Positions 19,914-36,314 of a DNA stretch of 49,383 nucleotides are shown one piece after another. The notes below the pieces were generated by a model. It saw only the letters and a list, made by a program, of their open reading frames with translations, did not search any database and was not told where the DNA came from. The translations under genes were made by a program, and so were the position numbers. Origin of the DNA: an uncultured Alphaproteobacteria bacterium (GTDB taxonomy: Bacteria; Pseudomonadota; Alphaproteobacteria; Sphingomonadales; SMXR01); NCBI GenBank assembly GCA_937126915.1, contig CAKZLM010000097.1, positions 1 to 49,383 of the forward strand, given 5' to 3'. Position 1 is the stretch's first letter; the number at the start of each line of letters is the position of its first letter.

Positions 19914-19954
19914 AAAAGCCCCTCCGTGTCGTCATGATGCTGGGGGGCTTTTTT
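19914..19954 (+). terminator. Intrinsic terminator after the chemoreceptor gene
   Basis: AAAAGCCCCTC (19914-19924) pairs with GGGGGGCTTTT (19942-19952) through a 17-base loop, and the T-run continues to 19954. It lies 31 bases after the chemoreceptor stop. Confidence 0.85.
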
Positions 19955-20385: not shown

Positions 20386-20416
20386 AAAAAAAGCGCCCTC
20401 AAATGAGAGCGCTTTT
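20386..20416 (-). terminator. Intrinsic terminator of the TonB-domain gene
   Basis: AAAAGCGC (20389-20396) pairs with GCGCTTTT (20109 offset: 20409-20416), with an inner CTC/GAG helix and an AAAT loop. The seven A residues at 20386-20392 read as a T-run on the minus strand. It lies 24 bases beyond the stop of the leftward gene. Confidence 0.85.
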
Positions 20417-20439
20417 CTAGAATTCGGTATCAATCCAAA

Positions 20440-20814
20440 TTATGACAGACGCCATACGATAGGAATGATGAAAGTCAAGTCAGCATCGCCAGCAGCAGCT
20501 GGAGGTGTAGGAAGTGAGTCTACAGAACCCATGATTTTGTCAAGCTGACGGTCAAGAATGCTCTCGCCAGTAGCTTCAGCAACTTCGTAACCAGCCAATG
20601 AACCGTCACGAGCAACAGTTAGTTTGATTTTAGCAGAACCCTCGATGTTGCGAGAGATGGCAGAACGTGGGTATTTCTGTTTTTTAACAACAGTTTTTGC
20701 AACTTCACGACGCCAGTCGCTAACTTCGTCAGCAGAAACAGTTTGAGCGCCGAAAGTAGCAAAAGTTACAGCACCAACAACAAGAATAGCAAAAGCTTTG
20801 AACAGGTTAAACAT
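20440..20814 (-). CDS. Exported TonB C-terminal-domain protein
   Basis: Small exported protein of 124 residues: a signal peptide (FNLFKAFAILVVGAVTFATF, cleavage near VSA-DEV) followed by a TonB C-terminal-type domain. The domain is recognisable in KKQKYPRSAISRNIEGSAKI and LTVARDGSLAGYEVAEATG, with the closing ADLTFIIPIVWRL strand. It lacks the membrane anchor plus long proline-rich linker of real TonB proteins, so it is probably a periplasmic TonB-like domain protein and not an energy transducer; no ExbB/ExbD genes are near. The ATG at 20812-20814 follows AAAGGATC at good spacing; a 17-codon upstream extension was set aside because it begins in unlikely sequence. A dedicated terminator follows, so it is a single-gene unit. 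Confidence 0.82.
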   Translation of the reverse strand: MFNLFKAFAILVVGAVTFATFGAQTVSADEVSDWRREVAKTVVKKQKYPRSAISRNIEGSAKIKLTVARDGSLAGYEVAEATGESILDRQLDKIMGSVDSLPTPPAAAGDADLTFIIPIVWRLS

Positions 20815-20969
20815 CACGATAGATCCTTTGATAAAATTCTTTTTTTGGTTCCCAGCCCAACTCATTCGTTTTCAGGACCAGCAACCTTTGATGTGTGTAA
20901 TATAATGGCCATCGGTAAACACCTTTTTAAAAAACATGGTTAATATTTGGTTAATTCGTAGAAAAATGA

Positions 20970-20999
20970 CATTTTTGTTAAAAAAAATAACAAAAAATG
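20970..20999. repeat. A/T-rich inverted repeat between tonB-like gene and tRNA-Ser
   Basis: CATTTTTGTTA (20970-20980) and TAACAAAAAATG (20988-20999) are complementary apart from one bulged A, around an A-only spacer. It lies in the 316-bp gene-free stretch 20815-21130, which is otherwise A/T-rich and holds the divergent promoters. It may be an operator or a terminator-like element; no protein can be named. Confidence 0.45.
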
Positions 21000-21031
21000 C
21001 CAAAAACCCTTGAATAAAAAGGATTTCTCGC

Positions 21032-21059
21032 TTGCGAAAAAAATGACTGTGGGTATAGT
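21032..21059 (+). promoter_or_regulatory. Candidate sigma-70 promoter for tRNA-Ser
   Basis: TTGCGA (21032-21037), a 16-bp spacer and TATAGT (21054-21059) lie 71 bases upstream of the tRNA, on the same strand. The match to TTGACA/TATAAT is fair. This is the only good candidate in the gap. Confidence 0.45.
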
Positions 21060-21130
21060 GCGGCCTCATTGCTGTTCTTAAATCTTAAGAAAAACTCTCA
21101 TTATATATAAAGGGGGTTTTTACAGCACAT

Positions 21131-21218
21131 GGAGCGGTGGCCGAGTGGCTTAAGGCGCACGCCTGGAAAGCGTGTTGGGGGCAACCCCTCCAGGGTTCGA
21201 ATCCCTGTCGCTCCGCCA
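21131..21218 (+). tRNA. tRNA-Ser (anticodon GGA)
   Basis: An 88-base serine tRNA with CCA encoded. The acceptor stem GGAGCGG pairs with TCGCTCC (one G-T wobble), the anticodon stem CACGC/GCGTG encloses loop CTGGAAA with anticodon GGA at 21165-21167, and the long class II variable arm (GTTGGGGGCAACCCC) is typical of serine tRNA. The T arm has GGTTCGAATCC. It reads UCC and UCU codons. Confidence 0.98.
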
Positions 21219-21444
21219 TTTCTTAGTGATTCTCTTAATTAAATTACAGATTTTTTTTCAATTTCAAAGGCCGGCAGGGGATGGGGGCGTGTACCCATCT
21301 TGCCATATCTGCCACGGTTGCAGCCGTTGCCATCGCCGGACATTTTGTTGCAGGTAAATGGTCGGATTTAATCTTGTTATCGTACCATAGATACCTATGA
21401 TAATGGGAAATTAAAAGTGGATTGAGGGTAAGGAGTAAAACTTT

Positions 21445-22443
21445 ATGGATTCGATAACACAGGCGGCATTGGGCGCTGCCATTGGCGGTGCTTTGGCCCC
21501 ACCAAAACATCGCCGTCGCGCCATGGTTACTGGTATCGTGTTAGGAACCCTGCCTGATTTAGACGTTTTTCTTGATTATGGTGGGCCGATTGAAAACTTT
21601 ACCTATCACCGCAGTTTTACCCATTCATTGCTTGTGTTGTTTCCCTTTTCAATTTTGTTGTGGGCCCTGTTAAAGCGATGGTGGACCCCTGTTAGCCAAG
21701 CCCCAAAGCAATGGCTGTGGATTATCACTTTAGCCCTTATTACCCATCCTTTAATTGATGCCCATACCGCCTATGGCACCCAACTATTTTGGCCTATTGA
21801 TATACATCCTACATCATGGGCAACCTTGTTCATCATTGACCCTCTTTATACATTACCGTTGTTATTTGCGGTGATAGTGGCCCTTATTCGCCCATTGGGG
21901 GATTTTGCTTTTAAGTCATTGAAAGTGGGGTTGGTCCTTAGTACGCTTTATGTGGTGTGGTCTTGGGTTTCCTTAACATTGGTGCAAAACAATGTTGCCG
22001 CCGCACTGGAAAAACGCGGCATACCTGACGCACCGTTCTTTATGACGCCAACGCCCTTTAATACCTTGTTATGGCGTATCGTGGTGATGACCGATGAGGG
22101 CTATATGGAAGGCTTTGATTCTGTTATTCTTGACGAGGGTGATATTAAGTTTCGCTCTTACCCATCTAATGTAAATAGTATGTTAGAGGCGAATGAGGTT
22201 TGGGCGGTTGCGCGGCTACAGTGGTTTACTAATGGATTTTTAAGAGCCCGTGTGGAAGACGATTCTTTGGTGCTATCTGATTTGCGTATGGGGCAAGAGC
22301 CGACCTATGGCTTTACTTATAAAGTGGCTGCGCGTGACACACATGGCTGGAAAACCATTCCTGCAGAGCGCCAACCTAGAGTGATTGACGCCCGATCGTT
22401 GGATGATGTTTGGCAACGCATTTGGGAAAATACCGATCCTTAA
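21445..22443 (+). CDS. YdjM-family inner-membrane protein (annotated as metal-dependent hydrolase)
   Basis: Integral membrane protein of the YdjM/DUF457 family, 332 residues. The N-terminal motif DSITQAALGAAIGGALAPPK, then GTLPDLDVFLDYGG, YHRSFTHSLLVL and THPLIDAHTAYGTQLFWP carry the conserved Asp and His residues on which the metal-dependent hydrolase name rests. Four or five transmembrane segments follow (for example LYTLPLLFAVIVALI and GLVLSTLYVVWSWVSL), then a soluble C-terminal domain from about residue 210. No substrate is established for the family. AAGGAG sits 9 bases before the ATG. It is convergent with the next gene, 14 bases apart. Confidence 0.85.
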   Translation: MDSITQAALGAAIGGALAPPKHRRRAMVTGIVLGTLPDLDVFLDYGGPIENFTYHRSFTHSLLVLFPFSILLWALLKRWWTPVSQAPKQWLWIITLALITHPLIDAHTAYGTQLFWPIDIHPTSWATLFIIDPLYTLPLLFAVIVALIRPLGDFAFKSLKVGLVLSTLYVVWSWVSLTLVQNNVAAALEKRGIPDAPFFMTPTPFNTLLWRIVVMTDEGYMEGFDSVILDEGDIKFRSYPSNVNSMLEANEVWAVARLQWFTNGFLRARVEDDSLVLSDLRMGQEPTYGFTYKVAARDTHGWKTIPAERQPRVIDARSLDDVWQRIWENTDP

Positions 22444-22457
22444 GCGATGAAAACCCC

Positions 22458-24707
22458 TTATTTAGGTGGCACGATATCCACATAGGGGCAGCCCTGCTGT
22501 TTGATCCATTCAACTCCTTGATCAGGGTTTTGGAAATATAGTGCCCTAATGCCGGGTTTAAACATGTCGCGCTTGGCATAATCTTGCAGTCTAATTTGGA
22601 AAGTGGATTTGGCATCCATTTCCTCGCCCCTAAAGAAGAAATAATCGCGGTCTGTGTAGCCTAAGGCACGGGTCATTTCACTGCGGGTTAAGGGGCCAAC
22701 CTCGTGAATTTCACCAACCACCACAGGGCCAACTACTTCGGCGCGCCATCTGTCTTCTTGTTTGCCGGGACACATTGATTCTGTATTAACCTTACCATTG
22801 GCATCAACAGAATAATCAACAACATAAAGTTCTAAGGTGTTAACTTTGGTACAGCTAATGGCCCCCCACCCCTCATCAGGGTTATCTTGCCATGGGATGC
22901 CACAGCCATGATTGGGGCGTCCTGTGATGGTGTTCATCACACCAAATTTTGACGCCGCATATACCCGAAAATCACGCAATGGTGGGGGTGCCTTTTCAAG
23001 AGTATTTTCGCCGTCATTGGCACCATCATCTGTATTTCTATCTACGTTCGTTTCACCTGCACCATTATTGTCGGTGCCTGTTTGGCGGTCATTGGGTCCT
23101 GGGCGCCGTCTTTCACCACGCTCACCACCCTGATTGCGTTGATCACGACGTTGGGCTTCTTGTTCAGCCTCATATTGTTGTTGGCGATACTCAATAGTAT
23201 CATCGGATATAGTGTTTTTAACGGTGCCATTCTCGTTAAACATCATGCTGGCATCGCCTGTTTCTGCGGCGGCTTTAGCATTTTCGATCATGCCTTGCAG
23301 GTCAGTGTTGCGTATTTCATCAAAGCTGGGTGCGACACCAGCACCCACATTACCAGACCCCACATTAGCACCGCTGCCACCGCCAAGTGCTGATTGCATT
23401 TGTTGCATGGCATAGGCCCGTTGGCGGGCTTGGTTTCGTTGCTCCATCATCCTATCTTCAAGGGCCATGGCACGCTCAACAGCCTCAATATGGGCGGCGC
23501 GTTGTCCGCGTTGAATGGCGTCTGTTAGTTCTTCATCCACTTGTTCAAGGCGTAGTTCAAACACACGGCTAACATCTTCAGGCGCAACGGTGGCATAGCC
23601 TGAAATAAATTTTTCCATTGGCACCCATTGGCTGGACACATACGTGCCATCATTAATATCCCATTTTGCCACCTGTTCGATCACTTGTGGGTATAAGGCT
23701 TGATAGCTGGCATAATCAAATTTGTTCCATACACTAATGGTGCAATTGGCGTGGCTATCAAGGCGATTAATAAAGTTTTGGTAGGACGCTGCTGTGATGA
23801 CACCGTTCACATAATCAGGCCTATCTGGCATTTTGCCACAGGCAGTGAGCAATTGTTCATAGGGCGCAATGGGCACAAAGTTTTCTTTCAGCCATGCGAT
23901 CACTTCTTTGCGCTGTTCGTCCTTTTGTTGGTTTTCCCCAAATAAATATGAAATAAGGGTTGGTGCATTCTCTATGGCATCTAAGGCTTCTTGCCCAAAT
24001 AACTGACGGTTATAAATCTCGTCTAACGTCTTGCCTTGTTTTTTTGCGTCTTCAGGGGATAAGCTATAAAGGGATACGGGTGTCGTATGAAACATATGTG
24101 GCCGATTTTCTTGTGTAGCATCGGTGGCTAACGTCCAAAGACGGTTAAACTTCGTCCAATAATTTTCACTTAAGGTACTATAGTAATAAGCCAAATCGGG
24201 AGACCAAATCCAATCAGTGGCAATGGCTTTGCCCATGTCTGTGTCGATCTCTTTAAACTCATTGCCACGCAAATAAGCTAAGGCAATGCTTTCAAATTTA
24301 TCCTGCGTATCCCTTAAAGATAGGTATAGGGATAGAAGTTTATCTTCAAGAGCCTCAGACCGCTCAGTGACCCCAGGGCCATGGAGAAATAAACGAATAG
24401 CAAAGGCATTGCCCACACGGCGCACAAGGATTTGACTGTGATACCACCCAATTTCTCTCCTGAACCATAGCTCATTAGGGCTTTCATGATTGCGATTAGG
24501 AAAATTGATTCCCTCACTCTTTCTATTGTATAAAGGAATGTAGGGCATGATCATGCTAAAATCATTATCTTGAAAGGGGCCATTGTACAGAAACGGCCCT
24601 TTGGGGCTGATGTATATTTCAGGATAATCTTCTTGTGCATTAAGGGATGTGACAGGCATCAAAAACAATGCTGTTATCATGATGAAAATGTTCTTAAATA
24701 GTGTCAT
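22458..24707 (-). CDS. Large exported protein of unknown function
   Basis: I do not recognise this 749-residue protein. A signal peptide is clear (FKNIFIMITALFLMPVTSLN). The first 390 or so residues are globular and rich in Tyr, Trp and Asn (for example ATDWIWSPDLAYYYSTLSEN). A coiled-coil/Gln-Arg-rich middle follows (EAVERAMALEDRMMEQRNQA), then glycine-rich and strongly charged low-complexity segments (GGERGERRRPGPNDRQ, DRNTDDGANDGE). The C-terminal 180 residues form a separate globular unit with cysteines (GCGIPW, ISCTKV, ESMCPG, QGCPY) that may pair. The ATG at 24705-24707 follows AAGGG at 10-base spacing and begins the signal peptide directly. Its divergent neighbour at 24827 is also a small exported unknown, 119 bp away. 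Envelope location is inferred; function unknown. Confidence 0.8.
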   Translation of the reverse strand: MTLFKNIFIMITALFLMPVTSLNAQEDYPEIYISPKGPFLYNGPFQDNDFSMIMPYIPLYNRKSEGINFPNRNHESPNELWFRREIGWYHSQILVRRVGNAFAIRLFLHGPGVTERSEALEDKLLSLYLSLRDTQDKFESIALAYLRGNEFKEIDTDMGKAIATDWIWSPDLAYYYSTLSENYWTKFNRLWTLATDATQENRPHMFHTTPVSLYSLSPEDAKKQGKTLDEIYNRQLFGQEALDAIENAPTLISYLFGENQQKDEQRKEVIAWLKENFVPIAPYEQLLTACGKMPDRPDYVNGVITAASYQNFINRLDSHANCTISVWNKFDYASYQALYPQVIEQVAKWDINDGTYVSSQWVPMEKFISGYATVAPEDVSRVFELRLEQVDEELTDAIQRGQRAAHIEAVERAMALEDRMMEQRNQARQRAYAMQQMQSALGGGSGANVGSGNVGAGVAPSFDEIRNTDLQGMIENAKAAAETGDASMMFNENGTVKNTISDDTIEYRQQQYEAEQEAQRRDQRNQGGERGERRRPGPNDRQTGTDNNGAGETNVDRNTDDGANDGENTLEKAPPPLRDFRVYAASKFGVMNTITGRPNHGCGIPWQDNPDEGWGAISCTKVNTLELYVVDYSVDANGKVNTESMCPGKQEDRWRAEVVGPVVVGEIHEVGPLTRSEMTRALGYTDRDYFFFRGEEMDAKSTFQIRLQDYAKRDMFKPGIRALYFQNPDQGVEWIKQQGCPYVDIVPPK

Positions 24708-24826
24708 CGTTGCTGCCCTTATCCCCATAGTGATTTTTGTTTGTCCTTGAAAAACAATAGCTCATGTTTATAATACTACATGTCTTTAATGTGGTTTCAA
24801 CCCAATTCAGGCGGAAAGGGGGCGTT

Positions 24827-25270
24827 ATGTGGTTAAGAATTATTATTGCAATTAGCTTAACGGCTGTCTTTGCGCTGCCGGTTATGGCGGAAGAAAAGGT
24901 TCCTGCTATATTGCCTGATACAGAAGTGGGTAAGATTGAATATCATAACAATATCTACGCGACGACCAGATTATTCATGCATCGTTGTGGTCGTAAAAAT
25001 GGCGACAAATGGGTGATGATGGATGGAAAAAAAGACATTGCAAAAGTAAAAGAGCGTCGGCAATGGACAGGTGAGGTATCTGTTGGTTGTTATATCTTGA
25101 CCATTCGTCGCAATACAGGCTGGTTTGATTATGAGCAAAATGATTATAAAATAAATGTTCGCCCACAATCACAGGGTGTTTTGCGTGTCTCTATTGAGCC
25201 GCGCCAATATTCACCCGAGGTGATTATTCAATTCGTCTCGTCTGAACCTTATTTCGGACGCGCTTATTAA
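24827..25270 (+). CDS. Small exported protein of unknown function
   Basis: Protein of 147 residues with a signal peptide (MWLRIIIAISLTAVFALPVM, cleavage near AEEK). The mature part is small, basic and beta-rich in appearance: YHNNIYATTRLFMHRCGRKN, VSVGCYILTIRRNTGWFDYE and EPRQYSPEVIIQFVSSEPYF, with two cysteines that could form one disulfide. No family is recognised. The ATG at 24827 is preceded by AAAGGGGGCGTT; a 21-codon upstream extension would not give a signal peptide at the N-terminus. It is divergent from the large unknown and convergent, 15 bases apart, with the beta-propeller/PHP gene. A role beside either neighbour is possible but unsupported. Confidence 0.72.
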   Translation: MWLRIIIAISLTAVFALPVMAEEKVPAILPDTEVGKIEYHNNIYATTRLFMHRCGRKNGDKWVMMDGKKDIAKVKERRQWTGEVSVGCYILTIRRNTGWFDYEQNDYKINVRPQSQGVLRVSIEPRQYSPEVIIQFVSSEPYFGRAY

Positions 25271-25285
25271 GCCGTCCTAGCTCCT

Positions 25286-27796
25286 TTATTGATAGCCTTC
25301 CAACTTCTCACGCGCTTGCTGATAGCGGGTGTATAGTTTTGTCATTGGGGTGTCACCATAGGCAGCACGGGCGCGTTGTTCGGCATGATTTATGGCACTG
25401 ATTAGGTCTTTCGCTGCCGCTGAACGAGCACTCTCATTGATGCTGCCTTTCTCGCCAATCCATAATGGCTGGCTGTGGGCAAAGGCGGTTCGGTGCATAG
25501 CGGGCCATGGGTCTTGGGTCTCTTGGCTGCTGTAGGTTCGCGCCGCAATCCAGCCGCCAGCGGGTAAGGTTACCGTGCCTGTGTAGGTTTTGCTTTCCCC
25601 CGCCTTGATGGGATCTAAGGTTTCAACAATCTGGCCGTTTACAATAATCTCAACTTTATCAAGGGCGGCAAGGCTGGTGATGGTAAGTGACCAGTTTTGG
25701 CTGCCAGCATTGACCACATCACCGGGGCGTTTGTCGCTATCGACGGTGAATAATAAGGCTGGGCCTGTGCTGATAAAGCCGCGGCCCTCGCGCGCTGTTT
25801 TAAGGGTACTAACAAAGTCATCCTTGCCATCTATAATGGGCACATAATAACGGGTGGTGCCATAGGCGGGAGTGCGATAAAAGTCACCCCACGCATCGGT
25901 GCCTGTCATACCAATGATTGGTTGACCGATGTTGAGCAGTCGATACCATAATTCTGCCCCGCCCAAGGGACCATCCCATCCAGTGATGATCTCAAGGCCA
26001 ATATCAGTGTCCAATACCATTTCATTGATAAAGTCCACCGACACGCCAAGGCGCTCTGGTTCGGCAAAAATATTGTCATCTGGTCCTTCGGGTGCGCGTA
26101 CACCGGGGTGAACAAAGGTTGGGAAGGCATCAATGGTTTTGGCATATTCAATAACCTCAGCATTGGCGAGGTCGGGGTTGCCTAGCACCGGATTGCGCGG
26201 TCCCCAGAACCACGGCTCATAGGCGTCGGAAATATTGTTGAGGCCAATATGCCCATGATAGTGTGAGCGTACTTCTTGACCTTGACTGGCGATATAGTTT
26301 CCTTCTTGGGCAAGATCACCCAAAATTTCACCATCAATGCGGCGTTCCCAGCGGTTCCATGTCATGTTTCCCACTTGGTCTAATTCCTCACCCGCTTGCA
26401 GGCGTAAAGAATGCTGCGGCATGGCGCGGCTGGTACCATCGCCGTTTAAGTGATTGTGATAATCGACCGAGACGAAACCAGCTGATCGGGCATCCCAAAT
26501 GCTGTTAAGAGCAATGTTAACCTCAGTGGCACGGTCACCACGGATGGTAAAACGCTGCTTTTCTTTGAGCCTAAAAAAGCCTTTTGTGACCTCAATATCA
26601 TAACGTCCTTTGGGCAGGGTGATGGTCTCATTGCCCGCGACATAAAAATAAGCGCGGCCAGTTTGGGGGTCAAAATAGGTGGCATCTTGGGTGCCAGCCA
26701 CGGGATGACCATCGCTGGATACAATTGACACCCGCGCGGTGGTGGCTTGGCCATTTTCATCTTGAAGGGTAAGGCTGACCTCTCCACTGTCGGTGCCATA
26801 ATCCCACTGCGCAATCTCAATCACCTCACTGTCACCGCCATATGTTTTGATGCGTTTTAGGTGAAACTGGCGCTTATCATCAGCCTCGGTGAAATAAATA
26901 TATTCGCCATCAGCACTGAAAGCAGGGCTTAGGGCATAACGGGTGCCATCGGTTAGACGGTGGCGCACGCGCGGATCATTCATATCCATGGTGTAGAGAT
27001 GATAATTACCATTGGTTGGCGCGCTGTAGGTGATAAGGGGCAGGCTTTTATGAACATCAGCGGTTAGGTGATAGGTTAAGGTATCGCCATAAAGAATACT
27101 GTCTTCACCGCTGATAAAATCACGCAGGCGCAACGAGCGAATAGCGCCAACGCCGTGCATATATAGAATGCGCTTGCCACCTGAAACGCGGCGAATGTTG
27201 CGCTCGACCTGTCTGCCATCGGTGATCATTTGTTGGTGGCCTGTTGCTAAATGATGCTGCCACACATTGATAGAACCCGAGGCGCCACTGGCAAAATAAA
27301 GGCTGGCACCATCTGCGGAAAATTCAGGGTCCAAGTCCATGGCGGGGGTGTTAATTTCTTGCTCGACGCCATTATCTAGGGTGAGTACAATCAGGCTGGT
27401 GTCGGTGCTGGTATCACGGACAAAGGCAAGCTGACTGCCATCAGGGGACCAGCGTGGGCGGCTATCCACATGTGGGCTGTTGGTTAGGCGTTTGGCGATC
27501 TTGGTGTTCAGATCCATCAACCAAATCCAACCCTTGGCGGCAAAGGCAATGCTGGTGCCATCGGGCGATGGTGCGGGGTCAGTGGGGCCATTGGCAAGAA
27601 ATGGTAATTCGTGCTGCTCTAAATAAATTTGATGACCAAAATCATCCAGCTTTGGATAGCGATTGGGCATTTGAGCATGGGCGATGATTGAGCCAAAATA
27701 AGCCGCCATCACCATCAGCAACATGACAGTTTTCACCGTAACTGGTTGCCTGTTTTTGATGGTGCCTAAAACACGCAATTGAGCTAAAAACGCCAT
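25286..27796 (-). CDS. Exported TolB-like beta-propeller with CehA/McbA-type metallohydrolase domain
   Basis: Two-part exported protein of 836 residues. After an N-terminal hydrophobic segment (TVMLLMVMAAYFGSIIAHA) come several TolB/PD40-type repeats (PAPSPDGTSIAFAAKG near 75, PRWSPDGSQLAFVRD near 117, PEFSADGASLYF near 160, PAFSADGEYIYF near 292). A small beta domain resembling carboxypeptidase-regulatory folds follows (about 340-430). The C-terminal half is a PHP-like, CehA/McbA-type domain: the metal motif D-x-H-x-H in VSVDYHNHLNGDG near 445, SHYHGHIGLNN near 515, FVHPGVRAP near 560 and GMTGTDAW near 636. CehA-type enzymes hydrolyse esters or phosphoesters; the substrate here is unknown. 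The ATG at 27794-27796 follows a perfect GGGGAGG site. It is 69 bases from the SulP gene, outside the sulfide operon proper. Confidence 0.85.
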   Translation of the reverse strand: MAFLAQLRVLGTIKNRQPVTVKTVMLLMVMAAYFGSIIAHAQMPNRYPKLDDFGHQIYLEQHELPFLANGPTDPAPSPDGTSIAFAAKGWIWLMDLNTKIAKRLTNSPHVDSRPRWSPDGSQLAFVRDTSTDTSLIVLTLDNGVEQEINTPAMDLDPEFSADGASLYFASGASGSINVWQHHLATGHQQMITDGRQVERNIRRVSGGKRILYMHGVGAIRSLRLRDFISGEDSILYGDTLTYHLTADVHKSLPLITYSAPTNGNYHLYTMDMNDPRVRHRLTDGTRYALSPAFSADGEYIYFTEADDKRQFHLKRIKTYGGDSEVIEIAQWDYGTDSGEVSLTLQDENGQATTARVSIVSSDGHPVAGTQDATYFDPQTGRAYFYVAGNETITLPKGRYDIEVTKGFFRLKEKQRFTIRGDRATEVNIALNSIWDARSAGFVSVDYHNHLNGDGTSRAMPQHSLRLQAGEELDQVGNMTWNRWERRIDGEILGDLAQEGNYIASQGQEVRSHYHGHIGLNNISDAYEPWFWGPRNPVLGNPDLANAEVIEYAKTIDAFPTFVHPGVRAPEGPDDNIFAEPERLGVSVDFINEMVLDTDIGLEIITGWDGPLGGAELWYRLLNIGQPIIGMTGTDAWGDFYRTPAYGTTRYYVPIIDGKDDFVSTLKTAREGRGFISTGPALLFTVDSDKRPGDVVNAGSQNWSLTITSLAALDKVEIIVNGQIVETLDPIKAGESKTYTGTVTLPAGGWIAARTYSSQETQDPWPAMHRTAFAHSQPLWIGEKGSINESARSAAAKDLISAINHAEQRARAAYGDTPMTKLYTRYQQAREKLEGYQ

Positions 27797-27865
27797 GGTT
27801 TGATCCTCCCCTAAATCATTTCCCAACACTACAATGCTAAAACATATGACGGTTAATGAAAAGGA

Positions 27866-29626
27866 TTATTGGGCAGGGGTGTCTTCGGTGGCTTCTTTCT
27901 GGTTAAGTTCGGTGATTAAAGAATGGAAGGCCTCTGATTGACTGAGGAAGACTTTGCCTGTTAGGTGCTCTAAGAAGGTTGAGCGCTCCAAACGATCCAT
28001 TACGGGGCCTTTCACCTCAGACAGATGCAATTTGATGCCCGCTTGACCAAGGCGGAAATTGATATTTTCAAGGGCATCAAGCGCGCTGATGTCGATAAAA
28101 TTAACCGCCGATGCCATCAACACAAAGTGCTTGCATTTATGGTTTTCGCTGATCAATTTTGCAATCGCATTTTCCAAATAGCGGATGTTGGCAAAATATA
28201 AACTGCCATCAATGCGGATTGAAATAATCTCAGGATGGGTGCGTACTTTATGGCGTTTAACGTTTCTAAAATGTTCGCTTTCCCCTACTTGCCCAACCAC
28301 CGCATAATGGGGGTTGGTTGTGCGGTGTAAAAAGATAATCAAAGACAAGCTAACACCCACCGCAATGCCGGTTTCAACCCCCACTAGAAGGGTTAACAGG
28401 ATGGTGGCGGCCATGGCAAAAAAGTCACCCTTACTATAATGATAGGTATCCAAAATTGGTTTGATTTTTACTAAACCTAGCACCGCTACAATGATGGTGG
28501 CAGCAAGCGTTGCCTTTGGCAAATAATACAGAAACGGCGTTAAAAACAAGGTGGCTAAGGCAATGCCAACGGCGGTTAAAGCGCCCGCTGCAGGGGTTCT
28601 GGCACCCGCATCAAAATTAACCACCGAACGGGAAAAGCCACCGGTTACAGGAAAGCCACCACTGAAGGCAGAGCCAACATTGCTCATCCCCATGGCAATA
28701 AGTTCTTGGTTAGGGTTTATTTTTTCACGCCGTTTGGCAGCCAGCGTTTGCGCCACAGAAATTGATTCCACATAACCCACCAAGGAAATGATGAAGGCTG
28801 CAACCATAAGCTTATTGATTAGGGGCAGGGTTAACATAGGCATGGATAGGCTGGGTAATCCTGATGGAATGGCACCGACAATTTGAACGCCATCATCATG
28901 CAGCAACAAAAAGGCGGTGGCGGTGATCGAGGCAATGATGGCAATGACCGGGGCGACCTTAACAGCAATATCCGCTCCCTGAGCGCCGAAATTCACACGG
29001 GTGAGGATGGTTTTTAAATGGCTTTTGACAAAAAACAAAAACGCCATGGTGCCAAATCCAATGATGGCGGTTGGCCCATTTATTTGGCTAATGTGGGTGG
29101 CAAGAGAGCCAAGTTGTTCGGGGATGGTATGGCCCGTGATGGAAATGCCCAAAACATGTTTTAATTGGCTAAAAGCGATTAAAATGCCTGAGGCAGAGAT
29201 AAAGCCTGATATAACAGGGTGGCTTAAAAAGTTGGCAATAAAACCCATTTTTAAAAGGCCCATCACCACCATAATTAAACCCGATAAAAAGGCCAAGGCA
29301 ATGGCTGTTTCGAGATAGCCAATGGTGCCTGGTTCAGCAATCAGGCTGACCGATGTAAAGGTCATGAGGGATATAACCGCCACCGGCCCAACGGCCAAGG
29401 TGCGACTAGACCCGAACAGGGTGTACATCAACAAAGGCGCGATGCTGGCATATAGGCCCACTTCAGCAGGAAGGCCTGCTAAAAGGGCATAAGCCAATGA
29501 TTGCGGAATAAGCATAACCGTGACGATAAGGGCAGCAATGCTATCATCACGCAAAGTGCTTTTATCGTACTGGCTACCCCATTCAAAAATGGGAAAGTAA
29601 GAGCGTAATCGGTCAAGCATCGCCAT
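27866..29626 (-). CDS. SulP-family anion transporter with STAS domain
   Basis: SulP/SLC26-type membrane transporter of 586 residues. Ten or more hydrophobic helices are visible, with the signature region MLIPQSLAYALLAGLPAEVG at about 38-57 and GSSRTLAVGPVAVISLM. Further on come VESISVAQTLAAKRREKINP and the conserved glycine-rich AFSGGFPVTGGFSRSVVNFD. The C-terminal 130 residues form a STAS domain (ISIRIDGSLYFANIRYLENA; NFIDISALDALENINFRLG). Family members move sulfate, bicarbonate or other anions. It begins 15 bases after the sqr stop and ends the peroxiredoxin-regulator-blh-sqr operon. In this setting sulfate or sulfite movement is likely, with export of oxidised sulfur one inference; the direction is not proven. 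Confidence 0.93.
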   Translation of the reverse strand: MAMLDRLRSYFPIFEWGSQYDKSTLRDDSIAALIVTVMLIPQSLAYALLAGLPAEVGLYASIAPLLMYTLFGSSRTLAVGPVAVISLMTFTSVSLIAEPGTIGYLETAIALAFLSGLIMVVMGLLKMGFIANFLSHPVISGFISASGILIAFSQLKHVLGISITGHTIPEQLGSLATHISQINGPTAIIGFGTMAFLFFVKSHLKTILTRVNFGAQGADIAVKVAPVIAIIASITATAFLLLHDDGVQIVGAIPSGLPSLSMPMLTLPLINKLMVAAFIISLVGYVESISVAQTLAAKRREKINPNQELIAMGMSNVGSAFSGGFPVTGGFSRSVVNFDAGARTPAAGALTAVGIALATLFLTPFLYYLPKATLAATIIVAVLGLVKIKPILDTYHYSKGDFFAMAATILLTLLVGVETGIAVGVSLSLIIFLHRTTNPHYAVVGQVGESEHFRNVKRHKVRTHPEIISIRIDGSLYFANIRYLENAIAKLISENHKCKHFVLMASAVNFIDISALDALENINFRLGQAGIKLHLSEVKGPVMDRLERSTFLEHLTGKVFLSQSEAFHSLITELNQKEATEDTPAQ

Positions 29627-29641
29627 AATAGTGTTCAGACC

Positions 29642-30931
29642 TTATCTTGATGATGTTTCGTGCAACATGGGCGTTTGGGCTAAAGTTTTTGGTTTCGCCA
29701 ACAACTCATGTCCTTTCAACATCAGGTCAAAATACATCCAAGGCAGCAGTTTCTCTTTTAAGAACCACGCCCGTTTGGTGGGCTTTAAGCCATTAAGCAT
29801 AGAGGTTGGCAGGGTTGGCTGTAATGTGCCGCCATAGCCAAATTCAGCCAGCACGATTTTACCGCGTTCTACCGTTAAGGGGCATGAGCCATAGCCTTCA
29901 TAGATGGCCGCTGATTGACCCCCCATTAAATAGCTGACCACATTATGGGCCACCACAGGGGCTTGCTTGCGAACGGCAGCGGCGGTTTTGGCATTTGGCG
30001 CAGAAATAATGTCGCCAAGACCAAAGATGTTGCCATAATCAACATGCTGAAGGGTTTCTTGGTTTACATTTAACCAACCAGCCTCATTACTAAGCGGTGA
30101 ATTTTTGATAAAGTCATGGGCAGTTTGCGGTGGGCATACATGCAGCATGTCAAAATCAACCTCAACATCTTTGGCTTTGCCCTCGCCATCACTTACTCGG
30201 AAGGTGGCTTTTTTGTTGGGGCCATCCACCTTGATTAAGTTCTCATTAAAGTGAACATCGGCGTTATATTTTTCGATATATTTTTCTAAGGCAGGGACAT
30301 AATCAGCGACCCCAAATAGAACCGGGCCAGCATTATGGAAATGAACATCAATATCAGATAATTTGCCCTTTTTAAGCCAGTGATCGCAGGATAGATATAA
30401 CGCTTTTTGTGGGGCACCTGCGCATTTGATTGGCATTGGTGGTTGGGTGAAAAGGGCTTTACCCTTTTTCAGGTCTTGAACCAATTCCCATGTATAAGGC
30501 GCCAAATCATAACGATAGTTTGAAGTCACACCATTTTTACCAAGGGTTTCTTCTAAGCCCTCAATGGCACCCCAATCCAGCTTAAGACCGGGCGCTATAA
30601 TCAGTGCTTGATAAGCAATGACGTCGTTATCTTTGGTGATAACCTCATTTTTTTCAGGGCGAAAACTATTAACCGATGATTTGATCCAAGTGGCCTTTTT
30701 GTGCATCACATCGGCCATGCACCGTTTGGTTTGGCCAGCATTAAAAATGCCACCGCCAACCATGGTCCATCCGGGTTGATAATAATGCTCATCAGTAGGT
30801 TCGATAATGGCTAGGGAAAGCGAGCTATCACGTTTGTGCAGGCTGGCCGCGACTGCTTGGCCACCAGCGCCGCCGCCCACTATGACGACATCATATTGCT
30901 GAAAGCTATTTTGAGAGGGTTTGTTGGACAT
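29642..30931 (-). CDS. sqr: Sulfide:quinone oxidoreductase (type II-like)
   Basis: FAD flavoprotein of 429 residues that oxidises H2S at the membrane and passes electrons to quinone. The FAD-binding dinucleotide fold is DVVIVGGGAGGQAVAAS at 14-30; a second FAD contact is GNIFGLGDIISAP near 300-312. The redox cysteines expected for the eukaryote-like type II group appear as Cys170 in PIKCAGAPQK and Cys350 in GYGSCPLTVERGK. There is no obvious transmembrane segment; the C-terminal amphipathic region (AWFLKEKLLPWMYFDLM) probably docks to the membrane. AAGGAAAATAAC precedes the chosen ATG; 8 extra codons upstream are possible. It starts 10 bases after blh. The product persulfide would be handled by the Blh dioxygenase. 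Confidence 0.92.
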   Translation of the reverse strand: MSNKPSQNSFQQYDVVIVGGGAGGQAVAASLHKRDSSLSLAIIEPTDEHYYQPGWTMVGGGIFNAGQTKRCMADVMHKKATWIKSSVNSFRPEKNEVITKDNDVIAYQALIIAPGLKLDWGAIEGLEETLGKNGVTSNYRYDLAPYTWELVQDLKKGKALFTQPPMPIKCAGAPQKALYLSCDHWLKKGKLSDIDVHFHNAGPVLFGVADYVPALEKYIEKYNADVHFNENLIKVDGPNKKATFRVSDGEGKAKDVEVDFDMLHVCPPQTAHDFIKNSPLSNEAGWLNVNQETLQHVDYGNIFGLGDIISAPNAKTAAAVRKQAPVVAHNVVSYLMGGQSAAIYEGYGSCPLTVERGKIVLAEFGYGGTLQPTLPTSMLNGLKPTKRAWFLKEKLLPWMYFDLMLKGHELLAKPKTLAQTPMLHETSSR

Positions 30932-30941
30932 GTTATTTTCC

Positions 30942-31805
30942 TTATAGCGCATCAAGCGGTAATTTCAGATAGCGCATGCCATTGTCTTCGGCAGGAGGCT
31001 TTTCACCAGCGCGAATGTTAATTTGGACGCTGGGTAAAATCAGGCGCGGCATGCTTAATTCAGCATCGCGGGTGCTGCGCATTTTAACAAAGTCTTCTTT
31101 GCTGGTGCCATGACCTAGATGGATGTTGTTTTCCCGCTCTTCACCAACGGTGGTTTCATGGGCATAATGGTCGCGACCGGGGGCCTTATAGTCATGACAC
31201 ATGAAAAGACGCGTATCATCAGGCAGGGCAAACAAACGCTGCACACTGTCATAAAGGGTTTCGGCGCTACCGCCCGGAAAATCACAACGGGCTGAGCCAA
31301 AGTCAGGCATAAAAATGGTGTCACCCGCAAAGCAGGCATTACCAATGACATAAGCCATGCAGGCAGGGGTGTGGCCGGGTGTGTGAAGGGCTTTACCTTC
31401 TAAATTACCAATCATAAAGGTCTCATTGTCTTTCAATAAATGATCAAACTGTGAGCCATCCGGTAAAAACTCTTTTTCAAAGTTAAACACGTCACGGAAA
31501 ATTTTTTGAACATCTTTAATATGTTCACCAATGGCTATTTTGCCGCCTAGCTTTTCTTTTAGATAAGGTGCGGCGCTCAAATGGTCAGCGTGCGCATGGG
31601 TTTCCATAATCCACTCGACACTAAGACTGTTCTCTTTTACATGGGCAATGATGGCATCGGCGCTTTTGGTGCTGGTGCGACCACTGGCATGGTCAAAATC
31701 AAGTACGCTATCAATGATGGCGCATTTATGGGTGTCTGGGTCAGCCACTACATAAGAATAAGTAAAAGTGTCTTGATCAAAGAAATGAGTAACAATTGGG
31801 TTCAT
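30942..31805 (-). CDS. blh: Persulfide dioxygenase-type metallo-beta-lactamase-fold protein (Blh)
   Basis: Metallo-beta-lactamase-fold protein of 287 residues, closely matching the Blh/ETHE1-type persulfide dioxygenases that use one iron and O2 to turn glutathione persulfide into sulfite. The metal motif is THAHADH at 69-75, with further ligands in HTPGHTP (His145) and AGDTIF (Asp162). The segment ARCDFPGGSAETLYDSVQRL is a hallmark of this subgroup. Unlike some Blh proteins there is no fused rhodanese or DUF442 domain. It lies between the ArsR regulator (21 bases upstream) and sqr (10 bases downstream), giving a sulfide-to-persulfide-to-sulfite path. The enzyme reaction is inferred from family and operon. 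Confidence 0.9.
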   Translation of the reverse strand: MNPIVTHFFDQDTFTYSYVVADPDTHKCAIIDSVLDFDHASGRTSTKSADAIIAHVKENSLSVEWIMETHAHADHLSAAPYLKEKLGGKIAIGEHIKDVQKIFRDVFNFEKEFLPDGSQFDHLLKDNETFMIGNLEGKALHTPGHTPACMAYVIGNACFAGDTIFMPDFGSARCDFPGGSAETLYDSVQRLFALPDDTRLFMCHDYKAPGRDHYAHETTVGEERENNIHLGHGTSKEDFVKMRSTRDAELSMPRLILPSVQINIRAGEKPPAEDNGMRYLKLPLDAL

Positions 31806-31826
31806 GCGTTGTTTTCCTTCTCGTTC

Positions 31827-32273
31827 TTAATGGTCATAGCGATAGGGATCGGGATTAATTTTAAGCCTCTTTCTGCTTGTGTTAGTGACAGATGGAAGCG
31901 TTTGATCCGTTGCAGAAATGGATGATAGACTGGACGGTGGCTGTAAAGCCGATTGGTTCCCCGCTGGTAAAGCCTGATGGGACCAAGCCTGACACAGTGC
32001 TTTTAAAAGATTTTCGGATAAAGTACCGGACAATCTATAAATAATCCTTTTTGATAGGCGCTCTGTCTCAACTAATTTTTCTTCCCTCAAACGGGCCAGT
32101 TCGCGGCTTAAAACGGGTTGCTTGATGCCTGTTTTTGTTTCTAAGTCACCCACTGACAGCTCTTCATCGCCAATGGCAGCCAGCAACAAAAGGCGGTTTG
32201 GGTGCGATAATACCTTTAACACCTTTGCCATTTCGCTGGCGCATGGTTGAAACTGTTGGTGATAGCAAGACAT
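31827..32273 (-). CDS. ArsR-family sulfide-responsive regulator (BigR/SqrR-like)
   Basis: ArsR-type winged-helix repressor of 148 residues. The DNA-binding core reads AKVLKVLSHPNRLLLLAAIG, then ELSVGDLETKTGIKQPVLSR and the wing ERLSKRIIYRLSG. Position and sequence point to the BigR/SqrR group, which sense persulfide through two cysteines. Here the cysteines are Cys3, Cys11 and Cys94. From memory of the BigR alignment, the first sensing cysteine (after HPxRLxLV) is replaced by Ala32, and the second seems one helix turn away, at Cys94 in KALCQAW. A Ser/Thr-rich tail of about 45 residues extends the C-terminus. The start at 32271-32273 follows GGGGGATTAAG and begins one base after the peroxiredoxin stop, implying translational coupling. 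It probably controls this operon. Confidence 0.85.
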   Translation of the reverse strand: MSCYHQQFQPCASEMAKVLKVLSHPNRLLLLAAIGDEELSVGDLETKTGIKQPVLSRELARLREEKLVETERLSKRIIYRLSGTLSENLLKALCQAWSHQALPAGNQSALQPPSSLSSISATDQTLPSVTNTSRKRLKINPDPYRYDH

Positions 32274-32274
32274 C

Positions 32275-32937
32275 TTAATCCCCCGTACCTGATGTTTTGT
32301 TATAATACCAGTCGACGGGATTTTGTGCATTAGTCATGCGGTCTTTAATGTCCTCAATGGTAGTCGGGGGTGATAGCAGCATCGGATCGCCCGCCTGCCA
32401 CCCCTCAGGGGCTGCAACCTCGCCTTTTTCTGTCGCTACCAAGGCATTAAGAACACGTAAAATTTCATCAACCGAACGGCCCACTGTCATGGGGTAATGG
32501 ATGATTGTTTTGATAATAGCTTCGGGATTGATGAAAAAGATTGAGCGAACCGTCGCTGTTGAGACCGATGTTTCGTCAATCATGCCATATTGTTCGGCGA
32601 TCACCAGTGACAGGTCTTCAATAACTGGAAAGCTAATATCAACGTCAAAGCGTTCCTTAATGTTCATGATCCAAGCAAGGTGAGAATAAATGCTATCCGC
32701 TGAAAGGCCCAAAAGGGAGCAATTAAGGGCCTGAAACTTATCAGCGGCCTTTTCAAAGGCAATAAATTCAGACGTGCATACTGGGGTAAAATCTGCGGGA
32801 TGAGAAAACAACAGCAGCCATTGCCCTGAATAATCAGACAAATTAATCACGCCGTGGGTGCTGCGCGCGGTAAAGTCAGGCGCTTTATCGTTTAGGCGTA
32901 AACAGGGTGATGCATGTGTTGGTTGGTCATTATTCAT
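32275..32937 (-). CDS. 1-Cys peroxiredoxin (Prx6-type)
   Basis: Thiol peroxidase of 220 residues that reduces peroxides, and in principle polysulfides, in the cytoplasm. The catalytic motif PADFTPVCTSE at 47-57 holds peroxidatic Cys54, Thr51 and the expected proline. Length and the tail domain (HYPMTVGRSVDEILRVLNAL; VAAPEGWQAGDP) are those of the Prx6/1-Cys group. Other cysteines (12 and one near residue 77) are not at the resolving position of 2-Cys enzymes. ATG at 32935-32937 has AGGAA 8 bases upstream; a 12-codon extension is rejected. It is the first gene of the leftward sulfide operon, directly under the inverted repeat at 32952-32991, and is divergent from pyp. Confidence 0.92.
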   Translation of the reverse strand: MNNDQPTHASPCLRLNDKAPDFTARSTHGVINLSDYSGQWLLLFSHPADFTPVCTSEFIAFEKAADKFQALNCSLLGLSADSIYSHLAWIMNIKERFDVDISFPVIEDLSLVIAEQYGMIDETSVSTATVRSIFFINPEAIIKTIIHYPMTVGRSVDEILRVLNALVATEKGEVAAPEGWQAGDPMLLSPPTTIEDIKDRMTNAQNPVDWYYNKTSGTGD

Positions 32938-32951
32938 ATTAACAATTCCTA

Positions 32952-32991
32952 ATTTACAAAATACATAATACAAAAATATATAAATGTAAAT
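32952..32991 (-). promoter_or_regulatory. Candidate promoter and operator of the sulfide operon
   Basis: Perfect 7-base inverted repeats ATTTACA (32952-32958) and TGTAAAT (32985-32991) enclose an A/T-rich core. On the minus strand TTTACA at 32990-32985 serves as a -35 box with TATGTA at 32967-32962 as -10 (17-bp spacing), leaving a short leader with AGGAA. A dyad spanning the promoter is what an ArsR-type repressor would use. The 147-bp gap from 32938 to 33084 also holds the pyp start; a weak TTGATC/TAAAGA pair (33024-33053) is the only rightward promoter candidate. Confidence 0.45.
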
Positions 32992-33084
32992 GAAATTTAT
33001 TTACCCCCCATAGTCCGATTTTTTTGATCTGCTATGGGTTTGCCGCGTAAAGAGGTCCATTAGTTATTAATTCGGAGAGAATTT

Positions 33085-33462
33085 ATGGAAATTGTAAAGT
33101 TTGATCAGTCAGATATCGAAAATGTTTTGGCCAATATGTCCAGTTCAGAAATTGATGGTTTGGCGTTTGGTGCTGTACAGCTAGACCAACAAGGCAAGAT
33201 ATTGCAGTATAATTCTGCTGAAAGTGATATCACAGGTCGTAACAAGGATGACGTGATCGGTAAGAACTTCTTCACCGATGTTGCCCCATGCACGAAAACA
33301 CCAGAGTTTTTTGGTCAGTTTGAACAAGTGGTAGCAGGAAAGAAGGACTCGGTTCTGTTTTCATACACATTTGATTATAATATGGCGCCAACGAAAGTAA
33401 GCGTACACATCAAAAAGGCCTTAACGGGCGATTCGATTTGGGTTTTTGTAAAGCGCATCTAA
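33085..33462 (+). CDS. pyp: Photoactive yellow protein (PYP)
   Basis: Blue-light photoreceptor of the PAS fold, 125 residues, the same length as Halorhodospira halophila PYP, and alignable with it without gaps from memory. A p-coumaroyl group is attached as a thioester to Cys69 and isomerises on illumination. Every residue I know to matter is present: Tyr42, Glu46, Thr50 and Arg52 ([12 protein letters not shown]), Cys69 ([11 protein letters not shown]), Phe96 and Met100 (FDYNMAPTK). The pattern [19 protein letters not shown] opens the chromophore pocket, and the C-terminus WVFVKRI is typical. ATG follows CGGAGAGAATTT. The last stop base overlaps the ligase start, and TAL follows, so chromophore synthesis is encoded in the same operon. 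Output partner and photocycle colour are not shown by the sequence. Confidence 0.97.
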
Positions 33463-34646
33463 TGCCTTTGATCCAATCAAAATATATGAGTGCTGCTGTG
33501 ATAGATTGTATCAGGGCAGCACTTTTTGATTTAGACAAATCACACCCAGCACTAGACCACCCGTGGACAGGGGAAACCCGATTAGACAATCTGCAAGGTG
33601 GTGATGTGGCGTTGGGGTTAAAGTCTCTTGATTTGATGAATATTGCCAGTGACTTTGCTGACAAATACAGTATTGGCCTTGCGGCTTTGGATGATTTGCT
33701 TTTGTCAAAACGCACCCTTCAGGATTGGACTGACCTTGCTTGTCGGGCGATAAATTTATGTCAGGCGCAATCAGACCCAGACTTGCGAGCGCAATTGGTA
33801 TTTCAGACATCAGGCACCACAGGGGCTGCCAAACATGTGTGTCATGCATTAGATTTTTTGGATGTTGAATTAAACCAATGGCAACAGCGATTGAAAGACC
33901 GCAAACGTATCGTAAGCTTGGTGCCTCACCATCATATATATGGTTTTTTGTTTGGTGTTGCTCTGCCATCTTATGCTGACATTCCCGTTGTTCGGATCAA
34001 GCATGCCATGCCGGGGGGGCTGGTATCTAAGCTAAAGCCAGGTGATTTGGTTATTGGACACCCCGCTTTTTGGGATTTATTTGCCCGTCAAACAACCCTT
34101 CACAATCGCCTTATCAATGACGTGGTGTTTGTTAATTCAACAGGGCCTTTGTTAGAAGAGACGCAAACAGTTCTTAAAGATTTGGTGATAAAAGATTTTA
34201 TTGAAATTTATGGCTCAACCGAAACTGGGGCCATTGGTGTGCGCCATAAAGCAGATGAACTGTATCGTTTGATGCCATATTGGCAGCGTCAAGACGGGAA
34301 GTTGGTTCACGATCAAAACGGCCAGCTTTATGAGGTTCAGGATCATTTGGTATGGCAAGGTTTTGATCAGTTTTCCCTAGCGGGTCGCAAAGACGATATG
34401 GTTCAAGTGGGGGGGATTAATGTTTCGTTAAATAGCTTGGCGCGATCAATAGAGGGTTTAGAGACAAGCATTCGGTCTTGTACCGTGCGCCTAGAAAAAG
34501 CTGATTTTAAACAACAACTCATTGTTGACGTAACCACTGAAACAGGTGCCGATCAGGCCATTTTAAAACACAAGATAAGAGACTATTTTGAGCGCGCACT
34601 ATCGGTGGGCATCACACCAATCATTTTGTTCCAAGAGTACAGTTAG
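33462..34646 (+). CDS. PYP-type 4-coumarate--CoA ligase
   Basis: Adenylate-forming enzyme of 394 residues, of the short PYP-activation ligase family, expected to activate p-coumarate for transfer to PYP Cys69. The AMP-binding loop is FQTSGTTGAAKHV near 114-126, followed by a core motif EIYGSTETGAIG and the hinge GRKDDMVQVGG. Two features are odd. First, residues about 38-97 look like an acyl-carrier domain (LGLKSLDLMNIASDFADKYS), with Ser55 where phosphopantetheine would attach. Second, the chain ends in ITPIILFQEYS without the usual A10 lysine motif (PxTxSGKxxR), so it is much shorter than plant 4CL. The ATG at 33462 shares its A with the pyp stop TAA. Real CoA dependence cannot be read from the sequence. 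Confidence 0.9.
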   Translation: MPLIQSKYMSAAVIDCIRAALFDLDKSHPALDHPWTGETRLDNLQGGDVALGLKSLDLMNIASDFADKYSIGLAALDDLLLSKRTLQDWTDLACRAINLCQAQSDPDLRAQLVFQTSGTTGAAKHVCHALDFLDVELNQWQQRLKDRKRIVSLVPHHHIYGFLFGVALPSYADIPVVRIKHAMPGGLVSKLKPGDLVIGHPAFWDLFARQTTLHNRLINDVVFVNSTGPLLEETQTVLKDLVIKDFIEIYGSTETGAIGVRHKADELYRLMPYWQRQDGKLVHDQNGQLYEVQDHLVWQGFDQFSLAGRKDDMVQVGGINVSLNSLARSIEGLETSIRSCTVRLEKADFKQQLIVDVTTETGADQAILKHKIRDYFERALSVGITPIILFQEYS

Positions 34647-34654
34647 GATTTCTT

Positions 34655-36223
34655 ATGCTTAAACAGGTCCCCGCAAAAATAGCCATTGGTGAAAACTTAA
34701 CCAGTGAAGAAATTTATCATGCTGCTACCCAGCAAAAAGCTGCTGACTTCAGTCCTTCCGTTCAAAAAACCATTGAGGATTCTGAGCAAAAATTAAACCA
34801 ATGTATTGAACGGGGCCAGTTAATTTATGGTGTGAATACGGGTTTTGGCCCGTTGGCAAAATATCAAATGTCATCGGATCAAAGCAATCAATTGCAAAAA
34901 AATCTGGTGTTTCATCTATCGTCTGGCGTGGGGCAACCATACAGCGCTGAACAAGTGCGGGCGATTATGCTGGTGCGTTTAAATAATTTATCCAAGGGTT
35001 ATTCAGGGGTTTCTTTTAAAACCCTTGCTTTGTTAAAAAACATGCTTGATCAGGATATTTTGCCTTTCATTCCGCAAATGGGAACGGTCGGCGCCAGTGG
35101 AGATCTTACGCCTCTCGCCCATCTCGCATTGGCCATGATGGGGCAAGGCCATGTTTTATCTCGGGACCCTAATAATGACGCCCCTGTGCCTGCTGATCAG
35201 GCGTTAATAGAGGCTGGTCTAGCCCCCCTTGTACCTGAAAAGAAAGACGCGTTGGCTTTGGTGAATGGTACGGCGGCAATGACTGCGGTGGCCGCGTTAA
35301 ACGCTCATCATGCGGACAATATATATCATCTGCAAACACTGCTAAGTGTAATGGATATCGTTTCATCCAAAGCGCCGAAAGAAGCATATCACCCTATTTT
35401 TGCTGAGGTGAGACCACATAAAGGCATGATACATGCGTTTAACAATTTAGCGGCGTTGTTGGGGGTGGATGGATCGGCCTCATTAGGCCAAAAAGCAAGC
35501 AACAGCTATCAGCAGCAAGAAACGGCCCATCAGGCGGTATATTCTTTGCGCTGCGTTGGTCAGGAGTTAGGCGCTTTTTATGATTGTTTAGACCATCATC
35601 AAACGACTGTCGATGTTGAGATTAATTCCGTTTCCGATAATCCCTTGGTCGATAAAGCCTCTGGTGAGGTTTATCATGGCGGTAATTTTTATGGTCAACA
35701 TATTGCCTATGCCAGCGACTTTTTGGGTATTGGTCTGATTAAAATGGGTGTCTTCATGGATCGGGTGGTGGCCAGATTGTGCGACCCCTCGAAAAACAAG
35801 ATGTTCCCTGAATATTTATCGGATCAAACAATAGGCATCCACAGCGGTTTCATGGGCGCACAGGTAACCGTTTCATCTTTGGTGGCAGAGTTGCGCTCGT
35901 TGTCAACACCTGCCAGCATTCAATCGGTACCAACCAATAACGATAACCAAGATGTCGTAACCATGGGCACTATTGCGGCGCGCAAAACAGCACAAATCAT
36001 TGATTTGGTTTATTATATCATCAGCATAGAGGCCTTGATGATGGCGCAGATAGTTGACCTGCAACAAAATATTGAAGACCTGCCGTTGCCTTGTCAACGT
36101 TTGTATCAACTGGTTCGCAGTGTAACGCCAAAATTACAAGAAGATCGCCCTTTAAGCTATGAGATAGAGGCGTTAACCAAGGTTTTAAAACAAGAAGCCA
36201 TCGCTTCTTTTCTTGATAAATAG
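34655..36223 (+). CDS. Tyrosine ammonia-lyase (TAL)
   Basis: Aromatic amino acid ammonia-lyase of 522 residues; should convert L-tyrosine into p-coumarate plus ammonia to feed the PYP chromophore. The autocatalytic MIO cofactor site is Ala147-Ser148-Gly149 in MGTVGASGDLTPLAHLAL. The catalytic tyrosine region is YGVNTGFG at 58-65, and later signatures include SVSDNPLVDKASGEVYHGGN and SVPTNNDNQDVVTMG. The selectivity pair is His87-Leu88 in LVFHLSSGVG: the HL pair marks tyrosine lyases, FL phenylalanine lyases and SH histidine lyases. Position 86 is Phe where Rhodobacter TAL, from memory, has His. It starts 8 bases after the ligase with TTAGGA upstream. Histidine ammonia-lyase is rejected: no other hut genes are present. 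Confidence 0.95.
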   Translation: MLKQVPAKIAIGENLTSEEIYHAATQQKAADFSPSVQKTIEDSEQKLNQCIERGQLIYGVNTGFGPLAKYQMSSDQSNQLQKNLVFHLSSGVGQPYSAEQVRAIMLVRLNNLSKGYSGVSFKTLALLKNMLDQDILPFIPQMGTVGASGDLTPLAHLALAMMGQGHVLSRDPNNDAPVPADQALIEAGLAPLVPEKKDALALVNGTAAMTAVAALNAHHADNIYHLQTLLSVMDIVSSKAPKEAYHPIFAEVRPHKGMIHAFNNLAALLGVDGSASLGQKASNSYQQQETAHQAVYSLRCVGQELGAFYDCLDHHQTTVDVEINSVSDNPLVDKASGEVYHGGNFYGQHIAYASDFLGIGLIKMGVFMDRVVARLCDPSKNKMFPEYLSDQTIGIHSGFMGAQVTVSSLVAELRSLSTPASIQSVPTNNDNQDVVTMGTIAARKTAQIIDLVYYIISIEALMMAQIVDLQQNIEDLPLPCQRLYQLVRSVTPKLQEDRPLSYEIEALTKVLKQEAIASFLDK

Positions 36224-36314
36224 TGTTTTGGTCGGTTTTCGTTGATGCCCTGTTGTGCTTATGTTTTTAGCCGTTTATGATGGCTTAAATTGATCGTTAA
36301 AACAGGAAGATATT

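Follow-up and report, generated by a model that had tools for sequence, protein, structure and literature searches.

Loading of the chromophore of photoactive yellow protein (PYP) is usually drawn as a path that leads from a lyase through free coumaroyl-CoA to Cys69. The stretch of DNA analyzed here (the window, 49,383 nucleotides, which is contig 97 of an alphaproteobacterial draft genome of 2.79 Mb in 176 contigs) holds pyp beside the genes for a coumarate ligase and an aromatic ammonia-lyase, and a sequence-only reading had seen in these three genes a complete, self-sufficient PYP module. Does this one operon hold all that its photoreceptor needs, and how might the chromophore be loaded if one of its parts is deficient?

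The pyp operon and its photoreceptor

The three genes form a co-directional, adjacent triad in the order pyp-ligase-lyase, an operon of the Halorhodospira (H.) halophila type as judged from the gene order on the contig (Table 1). The ATG of the ligase gene at 33462 overlaps the pyp stop codon (TAA, 33460-33462) by one base, and 8 bases separate the ligase stop (TAG, 34644-34646) from the lyase start; the coordinates of the single tight operon are thus those that the sequence-only reading had given. None of the three genes contains an internal stop codon. Promoter and terminator scans at the operon performed no better than on shuffled sequence.

Table 1. Features of the pyp operon and its surroundings, in window positions
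Feature	Positions	Strand	Details and basis
pyp (photoactive yellow protein)	33085..33462	+	125 aa; TIGR02373, 175 bits; PDB search, E 1e-51; residue table against H. halophila PYP
pCL (coumarate ligase)	33462..34646	+	394 aa; TIGR02372 match; alignment with 11-15 relatives
Acyl-carrier-protein-like N-terminal region of the ligase	33489..33761	+	Relatives' profile against PDB; motif table
VPRVQLG, possible frame-shifted remnant of the ligase A10 motif	34628..34648	+	In the lyase frame, upstream of the lyase ATG
TAL (tyrosine-type aromatic ammonia-lyase)	34655..36223	+	522 aa; PF00221; motif test; tree
Stretch between lepA and the M17 leucyl aminopeptidase gene	17429..36314		18.9 kb; synteny of G002, G003, G005, and G007

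The protein scores 175.1 bits against the equivalog model TIGR02373, above the cut-off of 143.05. Its best solved relatives in a PDB search are H. halophila-type PYP structures (E ~1e-51), and it is 64% identical to H. halophila PYP1, which bears out its description as an H. halophila-like PYP; judged by its sequence, the match to the PYP family is far beyond chance. The residue table confirmed that all seven residues named beforehand (Tyr42, Glu46, Thr50, Arg52, Cys69, Phe96, and Met100) are kept in the 125-residue protein. Among them are Glu46 (codon 33220-33222) and Cys69 (codon 33289-33291), whose loss on alignment had been named as a refuting outcome; neither is lost. When the lists of conserved PYP residues in PMC12826048 (9 in the pocket and 15 further ones) were applied, 8 of the 9 pocket residues were identical, Ile31 being Val as it is in Niveispirillum and Indioceanicola, and 14 of the 15 further residues were kept, with Gly86 replaced by Lys. 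The window PYP would be expected to show absorbance near 446 nm and a photocycle like that of H. halophila PYP. No donor was named from the PYP tree because most of its forks are unresolved.

The ammonia-lyase

The lyase matches PF00221 (E 6.5e-147) and carries the MIO triad Ala147-Ser148-Gly149 (GASGD) at 35093-35101 and the selectivity pair His87-Leu88 at 34913-34918, the tyrosine-type HL pair that had been recognized earlier. Its best-scoring models were general HutH models, yet it stayed below their cut-offs, and we therefore compared TAL with HutH directly by motif, setting the window lyase, three other PYP-linked lyases (those of G033, G008, and Indioceanicola), and Rhodobacter (R.) sphaeroides TAL, the sequence of which was used with the MIO triad written out, against 11 HutH-type lyases. 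HL, GPLA, and TNxxNQDVV are common to the former; the 11 HutH-type lyases, the host's own included, have SH and TSxxQEDHVSM instead. The host HutH sits between genes that we recognized by eye as urocanase-like and N-formylglutamate amidohydrolase-like. In a tree with long branches, the TAL and HutH clades split with support of 100/100, and the window lyase falls on the TAL side, where it joins the G033 lyase at 90/92. From the separate motif groups and the fully supported clades, it follows that the host has a HutH of its own and that the pyp-linked enzyme is, on sequence criteria, a tyrosine-type lyase. In the mechanism that we propose, this TAL would make p-coumarate from tyrosine, the ligase would activate the p-coumarate, and the product would become bound to Cys69. 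A tyrosine-type lyase was absent at E <= 1e-30 from G018, G560, and G657, all of which have pyp and the ligase.

Probable damage to the coumarate ligase

The ligase is of the PYP type and adjoins pyp in the operon, as the sequence-only reading had said; the completeness claimed for the module did not stand, since the C-terminal end of the ligase is gone. The P-loop SGTTGAAK (33810-33833) and the YGSTETG motif are kept. In alignments of the window ligase with 11, and later 15, PYP-linked ligases, it stops some 22 residues short, without the C-terminal A10 lysine motif LPRTxxGKxxDW that all 15 others keep. TIGR02372 matches it (E 1.4e-61) with 208 bits, under the cut-off of 334.7, and only to position 363 of 386; seven other PYP-linked ligases also score under this cut-off (242-323 bits), the window's score being the lowest. 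AMP-binding_C (PF13193) was matched to its end in nine of nine relatives scanned, in eight of them above cut-off, and gave no match in the window ligase. Lys replaces the Asp of the DSL motif (D54K) that is invariant in the 15 others, and two more conserved sites, upstream of the deletion, are changed (A355V and F356D). Altogether the window ligase departs at 7 of the 32 positions invariant among the 15 others, every other member departing at 3 or fewer, and it is the most divergent of the set (26-33% identity, compared with 32-60% among the others). With the lysine tail, Asp54, and these invariant sites altered, the description of the module as complete and self-sufficient is not supported.

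In the acyl-CoA synthetase FadD13, 96% of the activity was lost when the corresponding lysine, which there stands in the context PRNPTGK, was replaced (PMC2793005). A ligase that lacks the A10 lysine therefore leaves chromophore loading to residual activity or to another ligase, unless the contig is in error. No second ligase of the PYP-linked type was found in the host genome. Eight further AMP-forming ligases are encoded outside the window, one of them of the benzoate-CoA-ligase type and just under its cut-off, and host enzymes such as this one might act in trans.

How the end of the gene was lost is suggested by the sequence between the ligase and the lyase. VPRVQLG (Table 1) resembles LPRTxLGK without its lysine and is possibly a frame-shifted remnant of the A10 motif, of the kind expected after an old deletion; the loss of some 16 bases would account at once for the missing tail and for the shift in frame. 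The chance expectation of such a pattern in the stretch searched is 0.001-0.002, a value that applies to a pattern chosen after it had been seen. Restoration of the tail by stop read-through or frameshifting was considered and rejected, as neither frame yields the GK motif. We regard it as improbable that the deletion is an assembly artefact and that the 3' end of the gene is complete in the organism. The ligase end does come from one fragmented assembly (176 contigs), the single genome of its species, and a remnant in another frame would fit such an error, but the error would have to have dropped about 16 bases, the lysine is absent in the other frame too, and D54K, A355V, and F356D are all located upstream of the deletion. 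Our preferred explanation would be an old deletion or frameshift at the 3' end that removed the A10 lysine segment and damaged the ligase.

The remaining readings concern what such a ligase can still do. That the operon works fully, with a truncated ligase that is active enough and a missing lysine that is dispensable or replaced, seems to us somewhat unlikely, even though the open frame with its P-loop and YGSTE motif argues against a long loss of function. A weak ligase may suffice because each PYP needs its chromophore only once, and the intact PYP pocket and lyase active site suggest continued use; to be set against this are the absence of a lysine tail that is common to all relatives, the D54K replacement, and the divergence of the protein from the rest of the set. 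The opposite reading, in which the module is decaying, the ligase was lost first, and PYP is now present in its apo form or about to be lost, is unlikely. It would account for the ligase damage, for the lyase branch, which is the longest in its tree (2.46, compared with about 0.8-1.9), and for a PYP branch of 0.45, compared with 0.16-0.31 in close relatives. However, the branch of the host HutH is also long (0.98), so that the host may simply evolve fast, the three genes are free of internal stops, and both PYP and the lyase keep their catalytic and pocket residues. The account that we consider probable is an H. halophila-type pyp operon with a competent-looking PYP and lyase and a damaged ligase, in which the chromophore would most likely be loaded through weak residual ligase activity or another host CoA ligase and the signal would be passed on in trans. 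The module as a whole may be decaying.

A carrier-like N-terminal region in PYP-linked ligases

In PYP-linked ligases, the N-terminal ~100 residues do not match the start of the AMP-binding domain, the Pfam match beginning at about profile position 140-170. In sequence, this region resembles acyl carrier proteins and has an invariant serine. A profile of it built from 15 ligases, with the window ligase left out, returned carrier proteins for all of its best 60 matches in PDB (best E 3e-4), and a column-shuffled control alignment returned no carrier proteins and one unrelated chain. PP-binding (PF00550) gave a weak match in 6 of 12 members (best E 0.008), NCBIfam carrier-protein models gave weak matches in several members (best E 0.001), and a profile-profile comparison with three carrier proteins gave E 1e-4 over 69 columns with a probability of only 58%. 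All 15 ligases match TIGR02372 in their N-terminal region, and the carrier-like domain therefore belongs to the family as curated. Single-sequence structure predictions were too poor for use (mean pLDDT 45 and 37).

The Asp-Ser of the G-x-D-S motif is invariant in the 15 other ligases, and the window ligase has Lys-Ser at this place (GLKSL, K54 and S55). We put forward tentatively, as a possibility that falls short of probable, that the carrier-like domain bears phosphopantetheine on its serine, accepts p-coumarate from the adenylate, and passes it straight on to Cys69, so that the chromophore would travel on a tethered arm and not as free coumaroyl-CoA. The window ligase would then represent a naturally occurring variant with changes at both key sites. 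A literature search by titles and abstracts found no relevant link between PYP and carrier proteins or phosphopantetheine.

Genomic setting and distribution

Besides the pyp operon, the 18.9-kb stretch between lepA and the aminopeptidase gene contains sulfide-oxidation genes and an MCP gene (17651-19882, with HAMP and MCP signal domains). In four relatives from the family (G002, G003, G005, and G007), the M17 aminopeptidase gene comes immediately after lepA; the junction is a variable site, because other genes occupy it in G001. A horizontal island defined by composition was rejected, as GC and GC3 of both the operon and the 18.9-kb stretch are unremarkable. Divergent from pyp, at 29642-32973, lie sulfide:quinone reductase-like, persulfide dioxygenase-like (Blh C-terminal half), ArsR/BigR-like, and peroxiredoxin genes. 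A sulfide-regulated pyp promoter was rejected: ATTC-N8-GAAT, which we take to be the operator pattern of such ArsR/BigR-like regulation, is not enriched and is absent before pyp. Elsewhere, the pyp-ligase pair of L036 (G412) adjoins htpX and an rsmB-like gene, and the same genes lie 2-5 kb downstream of the window pyp operon, which could be either a shared neighborhood or coincidence.

PYP is patchy, as had been claimed. Among eight genomes of the host's family it occurs only in the window's own, and at E <= 1e-8 the genomes with PYP numbered 11 out of 399 for the order, 9 out of 385 for the class, and 5 out of 398 for the phylum, each count including the window's genome. A single-sequence search of genome contigs gave weak PAS matches only. 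Several PYP-like genes with other arrangements came to light. Two small-genome alphaproteobacteria encode long proteins with C-terminal PYP domains (L040:4884-6770 of G416 and L041:7505-9262 of G547) in which residue 46 is Gln in place of Glu, as in a naturally occurring E46Q, and the one from G416 also contains an MCP signalling domain. Gas vesicle genes (PF00741) adjoin pyp and the ligase gene in L033 (G008) and L039 (G657), which suggests light-linked buoyancy control. On plasmids of Caballeronia, Methylobacterium, Sphingomonas, and Rhizobium (L127, L128, L129, and L130), short genes annotated as phosphonate transporter, PAS, or hypothetical each lie beside genes for a diguanylate cyclase and a PYP-type ligase, and several of them are weak pyp matches.

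The PYPs in PMC12826048 are from bacteria only, and none was found in GenBank phage records. The IMG/VR contig IMGVR_UViG_3300044827_000006, a putative phage, encodes a PYP-like protein (L145:9342-10420; L144:3261-4339) with Glu46 and Cys69 kept, Phe42, and an N-terminal CPWC..CPAC. Its ATG shares bases with the stop codon of a gene for a CI/LexA-type repressor, and a NinG-type endonuclease gene is near; a light-linked prophage switch is conceivable on this contig.

Signal output

No output gene touches the pyp operon, in keeping with the earlier remark that the output partner is not obvious. MCP domains were matched 14 times in the host and GGDEF domains likewise 14 times (some of the matches being pieces of one protein); CheR, CheB, a MotA-like protein, and flagellin are encoded as well. 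Given these chemotaxis, flagellar, and GGDEF genes, phototaxis and c-di-GMP output are both possible, and a signal that acts in trans through chemotaxis or c-di-GMP would be plausible. A rhodopsin search of the host gave no match, and control genomes gave none either.

Discussion

The pyp-pCL-TAL operon of H. halophila has been described (PMC12826048). The window operon shares its gene order and adjacency, its PYP is 64% identical with all key residues shared, and it differs in that the ligase lacks the C-terminal lysine motif and the host is an alphaproteobacterium. The alphaproteobacterium Indioceanicola profundi carries the same triad order on plasmid NZ_CP030128.1, in an operon of pyp, pcl, aromatic lyase, hypothetical, and GGDEF genes; its PYP and lyase are 64% and 42% identical to those of the window. 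Unlike the window, it has a complete ligase, a GGDEF gene in the same gene run, and, as annotated, a 178-base gap between pyp and pcl. G033, of the same GTDB order as the host, likewise has the order pyp-pCL-TAL and the lyase closest to the window's in the tree (90/92), but its ligase is complete and its flanking genes are different. Because the triad is known from H. halophila and annotated in Indioceanicola, the window operon is a further case of a known arrangement. The starter pathway of aryl polyenes and flexirubins (TAL and ligase, e.g., FlxA/FlxY; Pseudoalteromonas cluster L131) similarly combines an aromatic lyase with an adenylate-forming enzyme that is related to PYP ligases over the ligase part. 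The aryl-polyene-like cluster L131, however, has no PYP, its carrier proteins are separate genes, and its ligase is without the carrier-like N-terminus.

TAL was present in 7 of 113 predicted pyp operons (PMC12826048), and the window locus is one of few complete gene triads; through the single gene that is broken, it tests which ligase parts are required. The most valuable result, in our view, is the carrier-like domain with its invariant serine, a family-wide inference that is testable in well-studied systems. It opens the way to a specific and inexpensive test of how the chromophore is delivered, and the production of holo-PYP could be improved by it.
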